NCBI RefSeq assembly: GCF_032484785.1 | Contig: NZ_JAUETR010000001.1 | Coordinates: 5,211,501-5,275,500, forward strand | Reading direction: 5' to 3' | DNA: 64,000 nt | Origin: Bradyrhizobium sp. SZCCHNS1050 | GTDB lineage: Bacteria > Pseudomonadota > Alphaproteobacteria > Rhizobiales > Xanthobacteraceae | Shown here: piece by piece, positions 3,441 through 54,953 of the stretch | How the letters are laid out: each line of letters starts with the position of its first letter | Position numbering within the stretch: the stretch's first letter is position 1 | Notes under the pieces: model-generated | Told to the model about the DNA's origin: nothing | The model's database searches: none | The model's input: only the letters and a program-made list of their open reading frames with translations | Translations under genes and position numbers: made by a program

Positions 3441-3564
3441 TGACGGCCTCGGCTGTGACGTAGTTCGGGCGTGATCAGGGCAGTGCGCAGATGATTTCGA
3501 CGCTGCCATAACGACCCGACGGGCAAATCAGATCGCGCGCTAAAATCCTGTCCAGCCGTCAGGC

Positions 3565-3970
3565 AAAAAATAAATCGCTTGCCGATTTCGTATAATCAGC
3601 ATTACAGTCCAGCCCGTTCCGTTGCGTCGGAGGGGACGTATCGCGGTCGTCATGGACGTCGGCAGCGGAATGCGATGGGCGTGTGTCGTTGCAGCGTGAT
3701 CATTCGCGCCGACGAACAATGATGCACGCACGGTCAAGTCGCGCGGTCCTGGCACCCCGATGCTGGTGTCCCCGCGGCGGCGCGCGGACAGCGCGTCGTC
3801 GCGCACGGTGGCCAAAAGCCGGCGCACCGGGGAGAACGCGAAGCAGCCGTCAAAACCATCGCGCAGGGAGGGCCGGGCGTCTTCGGCCAGACCTGTGGTA
3901 CCTGCCGCCTGCATTTTTTCCGCAGGCGGGCCACGGGCGCGGCCAGCGCCCGGCCTTCCCTGCGCCCTTC
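3565..3970 (-). repeat. Long structured intergenic element, copy A (about 400 bp)
   Basis: This is one of three long related non-coding sequences in the window (others near 20715-21115 and 54440-54840); this copy is inverted relative to the others. Its outer stem pairs 3861-3879 with 3947-3965 over 19 bp with a single G-T pair. The inner hairpin at 3901-3932 has arms CCGCCTGC and GCAGGCGG around an A/T-rich loop. Beyond the stem, the shared sequence runs on for about 280 bp and ends in an A/T-rich patch near 3570. No open frame is conserved between the copies, so it is not read as a gene. The outer ends are approximate. Confidence 0.8.
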
Positions 3971-4094
3971 ACGTCATAAGGGCGATGATATCGGCATCAC
4001 CCGGACGCAACGCGCCGCGGGAGTGAGAACGCATGTGACCATCCCGGTCGGTCCTGGACTCACGATTGTGGCAAATCCGATGACACAACAAAGG

Positions 4095-4198
4095 TCGTTA
4101 TTCCGGGACGCGTCGCGCAGCGGCGCGGGCCCGGAATCCATACGCACGATCGTGGTTATGGATTCCGGGCTCGCCCTGCGGGCGCCCCGGAATGACGG
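4095..4198. repeat. Palindromic intergenic repeat, CCGGGG/CCGGAAT family
   Basis: The left half starts GTCGTTATTCCGGGACGCG and ends GGGCCCGGAATCCAT. The right half starts GGATTCCGGGCTCGC and ends GCCCCGGAATGACGG. The arrangement is the same as at 490-640. Confidence 0.8.
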
Positions 4199-4276
4199 CG
4201 CAGGGAGAGGGGCTCATGCGAGGTCTCTCATGGCCGAGCGCCAGAGATGGCCGAAAGTCTCGCTTGGCTCTCCGCC

Positions 4277-20506: not shown

Positions 20507-20520
20507 CCTCGATCTCTCCG

Positions 20521-20638
20521 CGTCATTGCGAGGAGCGCAAGCGACGAAGCAATCCAGAGTCGCGGGCGCGGCCCTGGATTGCTTCCGCCGTCGCCCTTCG
20601 GGCTTTGGCGGACAGGTCGCTTCGCTCGCAATGACGGA
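20521..20638. repeat. Palindromic repeat, TCATTGCGAGCGCAGCGAAGC family (long form)
   Basis: The left arm is CGTCATTGCGAGGAGCGCAA ending AAGCAATCCAG. The right arm is CTGGATTGCTTCCGCCGTCG to TCGCAATGACGG and includes an extra CCCTTCGGGCTTTGGCGGAC insert also seen, inverted, in the copy at 48421. It starts 15 bp after bciA. Confidence 0.85.
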
Positions 20639-20714
20639 GAGATGAGACATGCGGTCTTCTTCTCGCGGCGCGTTTCGCGTCCGAGCTTTACCGTTCGTCC
20701 TGCCCTTTTCGAGA

Positions 20715-21115
20715 AGAGGGCACGGGGAATGCCGGGCGCTGGCCGCACCCATGGCCCGCCTGCGGAAAAAAATGCAGGCGGCAGGAACCACAGGTTCAGC
20801 CGAGAACACCCGGCATTCCCCGCGCGATGGTTTGACGGCTGCTTCGCGTTCTCCCCGGTGCTCCGGGCTTTCTGGCCACCGTTGCCCGCGCGGCGCGTGA
20901 GCGCCGGCACGGGCGTGACACCAGCGTCGGGGTGTCAGGACCACGCGACTTGACCGTGCGCATCGCTGCCGTTCGTCCGCGCGAGGTTCACTCGCGCGCA
21001 GCACCGACACGCCCACCGCATCCCGCACCCGACGTTCGTGACGACCGCGAAGCGCCCCTCGTGTGAGGCGGGACGGGAGAACGTATACACGAATTCTGAA
21101 AAAAAGAAAGAAGAT
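20715..21115 (+). repeat. Long structured intergenic element, copy B (about 400 bp)
   Basis: This copy matches copies A and C over roughly 400 bp. Its outer stem pairs 20723-20736 (CGGGGAATGCCGGG) perfectly with 20809-20822 (CCCGGCATTCCCCG). The inner hairpin is at 20757-20783 with arms CCGCCTGC and GCAGGCGG. The downstream part shares GGACCACGCGACTTGACCGT and an A-rich end near 21100 with the other copies. No frame is conserved. It and the repeat at 20521 fill the 750-bp gap between bciA and the P450 gene; nothing else is seen there. Confidence 0.8.
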
Positions 21116-21253
21116 TCTTTCGACGGGTGAGTGTCGGCGGAAGCGGGCGGGGATCACCCTCTTCGTGTCGCCGGTCGGACCTTCCGACAGCCGCGCGTAG
21201 AGCGGATTGCGGACTGAATTGCTCCGGTCACGCCGCGCAACGTGATCCTCGCC

Positions 21254-54280: not shown

Positions 54281-54439
54281 GATGTGGTCTCCATCCGTTG
54301 CGTCTTCACCGCCGTGCGAGGCGATGACACGGCATCGTTCCCCGTTGTCATACAACAGATCTGGCCATACGCGCAGACATGGTGGCATACCCTCGCGGCC
54401 TGCACGGCCCGAGCTCCGCGGATCTTCCACCCTCTTGAA

Positions 54440-54840
54440 ACAAGAGGGCGCAGGGAAGGTCGGGAGCCTGCCGCCCCCATGGCCCGCCTGCGGAAAAAAT
54501 GCAGGCGGCAGAACCACAGGTACGGCTGAGGACATCCCGGCCTTCCCTGCGCAATGGTTGGAACGGCTTATACGTGCTCTCTCCGGGGAACGGCTTTCTT
54601 GCCCCCGTCATCGCGATGCGCGTCATCCGCACCACGACTTGACGCCAGCACCGCGGCGCCGAGACCACACGATTTCACCGTGCGCACCGGATCGTTCGTC
54701 CGCACGGAAGACCATGCTGCGACCCGTCGCGCCCACCGCATCCCGCGCTCCACGTCCGTGACGATCGCGATACGCCCCTCTGCAACGAGGCGGGATGGCG
54801 AGGAATAAATCACGATTTTCAGAAAAACGCAAGGGGAGAT
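54440..54840 (+). repeat. Long structured intergenic element, copy C (about 400 bp)
   Basis: This copy aligns with copies A and B. Its outer stem pairs 54448-54465 with 54535-54552 over 18 bp with one T-G pair. The inner hairpin at 54484-54509 keeps arms CCGCCTGC and GCAGGCGG and the poly-A loop. The middle part (54555-54620) is the most changed of the three copies. The A/T-rich end (ATCACGATTTTCAGAAAAA) is kept near 54810-54830. No conserved frame is seen. Confidence 0.8.
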
Positions 54841-54953
54841 TATTTAGGGGGCGAGGCTGGACGTGGGACCACATGATTGACGCCAACACCTTCCGGTCAG
54901 ACCGAGGGCTGTCGCATTTGACGAACGGAGTTTTGTGCCGCCTGTCTCCAGGT

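Follow-up and report, generated by a model that had tools for sequence, protein, structure and literature searches.

The covarying stem at positions 3861–3965 of the window (the whole 64,000-nucleotide stretch of Bradyrhizobium sp. SZCCHNS1050 DNA analysed here) is real, and chance is excluded as its source. It forms one domain of a larger element whose product is, judging from sequence comparison, nearly certainly a structured RNA; this element probably belongs to a multigene family of autonomous genes, dispersed over the genome, for a structured non-coding RNA of ~420 nt. As first noticed, the element measured some 400 bp and occurred three times (copies A, B and C). These copies do exist, but the family profile extends the element to ~485 bp and the genome contains at least 118 of them.

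A fold so elaborate, and so well kept, should mean that the ~420-nt RNA has a definite biochemical job. The genus is a much-studied one of plant symbionts, and yet this RNA, present at more than 100 places in the genome, has no Rfam 15 match. To our knowledge, bacteria rarely have large multicopy RNA genes other than those for rRNA and tRNA. Genera with few copies should make clean deletions possible, and the many natural paralogs per genome offer unusual power for studies of covariation, promoters and gene conversion.

Covariation of the Stem

Checked base by base, the stem comprises 19 pairs in copy A (3861–3879/3947–3965, one of them G-T), 14 perfect pairs in copy B (20723–20736/20809–20822) and 18 pairs in copy C (54448–54465/54535–54552), all as originally described. 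Copy C includes one T-G pair on the + strand, which becomes a C-A mismatch on the RNA strand concluded below and counts against the fold in that copy. Two double changes said to distinguish B from A and C were also verified: A-T (in A and C) to G-C (in B), and G-C to T-A.

We aligned 31 copies from this genome without fitting the alignment to the structure, which was drawn by hand (alignment A2). Here 94.9% of the cells were paired, and double changes were found in 40 cells and in 9 of the 40 pairs. Shuffling gave a mean of 11.5 double-change cells, with 0 of 500 shuffles as high as observed (8 of 500 for the number of pairs with double changes), counts that are not to be read as probabilities since copies of the same genome are alike by concerted evolution. 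When partners were shifted by 1–3 columns, 40–50% of the cells paired, versus 94.9%. It is this loss of pairing, together with the excess of double changes over the shuffled mean, that excludes chance.

A model-fitted alignment of 43 matches from this and other genomes (A4; one row, L091, is antisense) was 95.2% paired. In it, 24 of the 40 core pairs were changed on both sides, with 202 such cells against a shuffled mean of 70.9 (0 of 500 as high, to be read in the same way). A third set (A5) held 18 sequences from other genomes, 16 of them from other genera (one, G357, being of another family) and two from other Bradyrhizobium. These were taken from 22 extracted ranges, leaving out L242, L269 (a nonsensical range), L270 and L277; 17 further loci had no anchor.

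The inner hairpin of the stem had been called invariant. It is the same in copies A, B and C, but 3 of the 31 sampled copies of this genome (L003, L006 and L020) have a T-A to A-T swap, and other lineages have a different stem, e.g. CTCGTGTGC/GCACACGAG. In A4, every scored cell of the hairpin pairs, and both sides have changed in 7 of its 8 pairs (100% paired); in A5, all except 4 of 162 cells pair.

Predicted Fold of the Element

RNAalifold, applied to the 107 full-length copies, predicts that the product of the copy A strand folds into a P1 helix, then a multibranched domain closed by P2 and holding P3 and P4, and then P5, P6 and P7. The parts are located in the window as follows.

3558–4041, + strand: copy A, whole element, from the promoter-like region to just past the last hairpin (nhmmer family profile, model positions 6–492 of 511)
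3579–3609, + strand: promoter-like sequence of copy A, upstream of P1, −35 near 3579–3584 and −10 near 3603–3609 (from alignment columns)
~3615–4030, + strand: structured RNA of copy A, ~420 nt (predicted fold)
3617–3625/3662–3670, + strand: P1, 5′-terminal helix, 9 pairs including one G-T (pairs checked in copy A)
3672–3678, + strand: P2 5′ arm, long-range partner 3856–3862, 7 Watson-Crick pairs in copy A
3856–3862, + strand: P2 3′ arm, partner of 3672–3678
3679–3729, + strand: P3 hairpin domain, at least three double changes in each of 14 of its 20 pairs
3731–3849, + strand: P4 domain, basal helix 3731–3750/3830–3849
3751–3770, 3773–3803 and 3806–3829, + strand: P4a, P4b and P4c, inside the P4 domain
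3863–3963, + strand: P5, the stem first noticed (3861–3965), inner hairpin 3905–3929
3965–3982, + strand: P6 hairpin, CCCTC...GAGGG type, loop variable
4000–4021, + strand: P7 hairpin, last conserved helix, CTCGGGCG...CGCCGCGAG type
20636–21122, − strand: copy B, whole element (family profile)
~21074–21021, 21019–21013/20830–20824, 20823–20722 and 20685–20662, − strand: P1, P2, P5 and P7 of copy B
54366–54846, − strand: copy C, whole element (family profile)
~54796–54741, 54739–54733/54557–54551, 54550–54450 and 54413–54392, − strand: P1, P2, P5 and P7 of copy C

Over the 107 rows, P2 is paired in 99.1% of cells; its consensus is GCGGTGG with CCATCGC, and copy A has GCGATGG with CCATCGC, Watson-Crick throughout. 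Positions 3861–3862 are shared by the 3′ arm of P2 and the two outermost pairs of the stem as first drawn, so that those pairs compete. P4a is paired in 100% of cells, with double changes in 5 of its 6 pairs, P7 in 93.1% (at least three double changes in each of 4 of its 9 pairs), P6 in 87.7% and P1, over its 9 pairs, in 85.2%.

Folded on its own, copy A has P2, P4 and P5 in its minimum-energy structure. De novo folding of the 18-sequence set A5 recovered P1, P2, the basal P4 helix, P4a, P4c and P5, with a kept double change in 38 of 82 pairs; P6 and P7 were not predicted from that alignment. In the sequences, pairing is maintained both within and between species.

Strand Asymmetry and Putative Signals for Transcription

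The original prediction had left the choice between a folded RNA and a DNA cruciform. Covariation across the element and across genera, as well as a strand asymmetry, favors the RNA; in a cruciform the two strands would be equivalent, and the asymmetry rules it out. In the 107 rows there were 1666 G-U cells versus 259 A-C cells, a count that leans, the structure having been predicted on that strand. The A2 core, with its hand-drawn structure, had 103 G-U cells versus 63 non-standard cells of all kinds. The RNAalifold energies of the two strands were −315 and −258 kcal/mol, and single-strand folding of copy A gave z = −5.0 (+ strand) versus −2.6 (− strand). P6, with 41 G-U versus 49 A-C cells, carries no strand signal, and neither P6 nor the two-pair helix 40–41/461–462 has a G-U excess. 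The predominance of G-U over A-C on one strand implies that the folded molecule is single-stranded.

Directly before P1, the full-length copies share a sigma-70-like promoter consensus. Across the 107 copies, the −35 begins with TT (98% and 91%), with TTG present in 48, and the −10 is of the form T....T (first T in 78%, last T in 94%). The −10 sits 7–8 nt before P1 in 92 of the 107, and an extended −10 TG occurs in 68. Promoter scores averaged 7.7, only ~1.3 sd above the 6.45 (sd 0.96) obtained after shuffling the upstream sequence, with the best placement taken for each copy. At the matching place in other genera we found TTGACA-18-TATAGT (L243) and TTGACA-16-TATAGT (L245 and L252), in a comparison that leaves out wrongly anchored distant loci, e.g. 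L244, L246 and L250.

The upstream region of the copies is of several types. The promoter-side modules CGACGGGCAAATCA, CCTGTCCAGTCC and AAAAATATTC are common to copies across several Bradyrhizobium genomes (e.g. L013, L167, L258 and L260). Other copies bear different modules, and the modules hint at differently regulated subfamilies.

On the other side of the element, REP-like palindromes lie within 200 bp in 49 of the 118 copies; 10 copies have them 5′ of the element, and the window background is 0.10 motifs per 200 bp. Those 3′ of copies A and B are at 4096–4200 and 20520–20640 of the window. A position mostly 3′ of the copies is what is seen after a transcription unit. No clear intrinsic terminator was found past P7.

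Twenty of the 118 copies carry a tail motif, CTGTTTGA, at their 3′ end; the motif is missing from the 200 bp upstream of the copies and from the window. Among 20 loci of other genomes, 13 also have it past P5. In such genomes (L238–L257) the 3′ tail is often GTGGCTGTTTGA, followed by a TTGAATC-like stretch; it lies outside the predicted helices and is a candidate binding or processing site.

Taken together, the strand asymmetry, the promoter-like signal, the 3′ palindromes and the tail motif point to transcription in the direction P1 to P7, and we infer that copies are transcribed from a start near P1.

Copies in the Genome and Their Gene Context

Within the 7.62-Mb genome (six contigs), 40 of 191 candidates were scored with copy A as query and all 40 matched. 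A search with R1, a covariance model built from the stem, found at least 118 sense copies, counted at 58 bits or more (antisense echoes remained below 49 bits). Such covariance-model searches scored 150 candidates each when run on one or a few genomes and 12–14 each, with strict filters, when run on many, so that they give minimum copy numbers and weak evidence of absence.

The whole-element profile (511 columns) matches all 118 copies, and 108 of them, including L227, which matches in two pieces, contain the 5′ half. The full-length alignment holds 107 copies. Ten short copies consist of the P5–P7 side only; among these, L162 ends at a contig end. The conserved region runs from ~40–60 nt before P1 to just past P7.

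All 118 copies lie between called genes. Overlap with a called gene stays below half of the shorter feature for every copy, the calls being those of a simple codon-usage script run on ~3-kb pieces. With no copy covered by any of these calls, a coding sequence is disfavored. Most gap runs in the alignment have lengths of 1 or 2 mod 3, which points the same way, if weakly, since one rare insertion gaps every other row. Short hypothetical ORFs are presumably annotated over such elements in Bradyrhizobium, and the element may explain them.

The 88 copies with both neighbors called show all four neighbor orientations (25, 23, 21 and 19), which argues that the element is not part of adjacent transcripts. 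Given its terminator-like hairpins, the element might be taken for a riboswitch, leader or terminator belonging to the gene next to it. We consider this hardly conceivable, since the element has its own promoter-like start, and the lack of any fixed orientation to neighboring genes rules out a leader or terminator.

When the 409 adjacent ORFs were clustered, no family stood out as a possible protein partner. The clusters with the most loci were those of a DDE transposase (8 loci) and a short-chain dehydrogenase-like protein (7 loci; assigned by eye, and a common family); the others had at most 4 loci. The DDE transposase (PF13751 and PF01609, domains read on L004) lies upstream of its 8 loci in either orientation, several times within ~40 bp. 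These loci include L004, L151, L192, L210 and L220 in this genome and L256 in G231, another genome of the collection. Several of the adjoining copies bear CGTCGGGCAAATCA-type sequence at that place, and the insertion sequence may target a promoter-side palindrome.

Distribution among Genomes

R1 matched 97 of 244 genomes of the family, in 16 of 41 genera. All 29 same-genus genomes listed (this one included) had matches, from 1 in G056 to at least 14. Among the 297 genomes searched in the order, R2 matched 14: 12 in the family, G357 and, weakly, G274. At the level of the class, 2 of 289 genomes matched R2, namely our own and G800 (a 270-contig assembly with 5% contamination).

Counting antisense echoes, matches per genome were at least 150 in G237, 130 in G231, 84 in G122, 52 in G133, 41 in G189, 37 in G109 and 19 in G022; sense copies alone were 88 in G231 and 54 in G122. 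In other genera the corresponding counts, echoes included, were 22 (G158), 8 (G057), 6 (G173) and 4 (G144). Most other genera having the element contain one to few copies. Several matches in G024 (genus g24) are at contig ends; longer near-identical copies may have broken that assembly.

Orthologous Sites and Probable Gene Conversion

The P5 cores of a single genome are alike, so paralogs are not independent witnesses of covariation. To escape concerted evolution, we compared copies at syntenic sites in 120 stretches of the genome collection. Both flanks matched in 18 pairs, of which 17, covering 16 of our copies, were used (L023/L034, with a short, weak upstream match, was dropped). The element was on average 88.9% identical in these pairs, and the flanking 20–150 bp were 68.8% and 67.6% identical. 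At paired positions, 28 of the 29 double changes kept pairing and one broke it; of 144 single changes, 100 kept it and 44 broke it, where ~38% would be expected to keep it with transitions weighted 4:1. These counts set aside 48 gaps and 111 cells unpaired in our own copy. A pattern of independent and frequently pair-breaking arm changes, the outcome that would have contradicted a selected fold, was thus not seen at these sites.

The site of copy A holds the element in G237, G177 and G231 and a 3′ remnant in G122; no element was found in the G189, G022 and G133 loci examined. Relative to G237, double changes in copy A were 5 kept and 0 broken, and single changes 10 kept and 1 broken. The comparisons with G177 (double, 8 kept and 5 broken; single, 17 and 5) and G231 (double, 10 and 6; single, 14 and 10) are weaker; divergence is higher there, and the aligner was a plain sequence one.

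In 11 of the 17 pairs, no paralog in our genome was closer than the ortholog, and in the other 6, 1–4 paralogs were. Many copies have thus been inherited in place.

The nearest paralog of a copy has a median identity of 95.0% over the P5 core versus 81.4% over the element, where it reaches 98% for none of the 107 copies. L014 and L017 form a mosaic, with the left part and P5 in common and the right part different. In G094, a 125-nt P5 stretch is exactly the same in five copies and differs at the last base in a sixth, and the element otherwise differs. P5 thus seems to be homogenized by partial gene conversion, its sequence being lineage-specific and its pairing constant.

Could the element be still mobile, as a non-autonomous sequence of the MITE, REP/RAYT or SINE-like kind whose structure is needed for transposition? 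Target-site duplications are absent (a 7-bp direct repeat flanks 10 of 107 copies, versus 10.1 expected), nearest paralogs are far from identical (median 81%), and sites are common to different species. Furthermore, copy A had no match at E 1e-5 among 72,556 plasmid and 50,697 phage records. Inspection by eye of part of the element ends showed no terminal inverted repeats.

Such mobility would, on the other hand, accommodate the widely variable copy number within the genus, the 10 short copies and the G024 matches at contig ends. The genome also contains three Y1_Tnp (RAYT-type) matches over the cut-off. One of them, G000:C1:3957242-3957511, ends 379 bp before copy L002, which with 118 copies may be chance. 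On balance, a mobile element is quite improbable, and an active transposon in particular is disfavored by the absence of target-site duplications, near-identical paralogs and plasmid or phage matches.

For the dispersed RNA genes that we favor, copies would be transcribed from the promoter-like start before P1, and the RNA would act in trans, as a stable RNA or an RNA–protein particle (our working choice). The gene would have been multiplied in many Bradyrhizobium genomes for dosage or to provide differently regulated copies, and partial gene conversion would keep the P5 cores of one genome alike.

Relation to Known RNAs and Repeats

The window has no match to Rfam 15 at the gathering threshold and no tRNA or tmRNA. 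At an E-value threshold, Rfam matches in copy A and five distant loci were all far below gathering scores.

OLE, GOLLD and ROOL are large structured bacterial RNAs with complex folds. The element resembles them in the size and complexity of its fold but has no Rfam match; we know of no RNA of this type present in 100 dispersed copies.

ERIC and the pneumococcal BOX are likewise intergenic repeats that occur in many copies and have a conserved RNA fold. They are shorter, and a promoter of their own is not a defining part of them. One might regard our element as a repeat of this kind, derived from an old mobile element, with a folded RNA that acts in cis within neighboring transcripts (on stability, termination or processing). 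It is indeed multicopy, intergenic and structured, and its copies are mosaic (L014/L017, and in G094 with identical P5 sequences in different surroundings). However, it shows no preferred neighbor orientation and has its own promoter-like consensus. It is ~420 nt long, its long-range helix is conserved over genera where copies are mostly few, and, unlike ERIC or BOX, it has low-copy relatives in other genera and single loci that persist between species. We therefore find the ERIC/BOX-like origin unlikely.

A REP or BIME unit is a short palindrome of 20–40 nt, whereas the element is ~485 bp with defined ends. BjrC sRNAs of B. japonicum are reportedly non-coding RNAs, some of them multicopy. The BjsR1–BjsR10 sRNAs of the same species have at most 2–4 imperfect copies per genome (PMC5082802). 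Both groups are like the element in being Bradyrhizobium non-coding RNAs, some with several copies, but those copies are few and, by the descriptions available to us, nothing among them fits the element (PMC5082802).

Br-REP1 and Br-REP2 of B. japonicum have consensus lengths of 20 and ~40 nt and are found in 3′-UTRs (PMC5082802). They too are intergenic multicopy palindromic repeats, in the same genus, and REP-like palindromes lie 3′ of many element copies. Their sequence is nevertheless another one (consensus of PMC5082802 compared by eye), and the element corresponds to a ~420-nt RNA with a promoter-like start.

The accessible text of two B. japonicum transcriptome papers (PMC5082802 and PMC4842269) does not name the element. 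Nor did we find a description of it in the openly accessible full-text literature covered. The element is new to Rfam 15 and, within that coverage, undescribed.

Spacing along the Chromosome

The 85 copies on C1, a contig of our genome, are more evenly spaced than random, with a gap CV of 0.63 versus 0.99 ± 0.10 (0 of 2000 random sets as even). The same holds for G237 (CV 0.77, P = 0.0005, 122 listed copies from a list at ≥97 bits) and G122 (CV 0.71, P = 0.004, 54 copies). Pairs closer than 10 kb numbered 3 (C1), 6 (G237), 1 (G231) and 0 (G122), versus 12.3, 17.5, 8.6 and 3.8 expected. Even spacing is not predicted by a dosage model and counts against our preferred reading as RNA genes acting in trans.

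A bolder possibility, which we hold to be rather unlikely, is that the more than 100 evenly spaced, individually promoted copies are gene-converted yet selected site by site, with an RNA job tied to the location of the gene. For a location-tied RNA system with over 100 copies (serving, e.g., chromosome organization or local control), we know of no described counterpart among bacterial RNAs.

The spacing could also be that of a chromosome-organizing element, working at the DNA level or through RNA tethered at its gene, like naRNA4/REP325 of E. coli. The latter is likewise a non-coding RNA from a repeated extragenic sequence, but is REP-encoded and linked to HU and DNA bridging (PMC6907758). Evenness in three of four genomes and the rarity of close pairs in all four agree with such a role. 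Recombination loss of close copies, however, explains their avoidance equally well, a DNA-level cruciform is contradicted by the strand asymmetry, and the 88 copies of G231 are not even overall (CV 1.15). We judge this role very unlikely. Recombination loss of close pairs is the plain explanation of the spacing, and a positional function the bold one.

Strand bias with respect to replication was mixed, with permutation P values, obtained with origins unlocated, of 0.12 (C1), 0.54 (G237), 0.036 (G231) and 0.021 (G122). The unevenness in G231 is due to a nearly empty stretch of ~1.4 Mb (G231:C1, ~5.58–7.01 Mb) that contains a single copy and may be acquired DNA, e.g. a symbiosis island.
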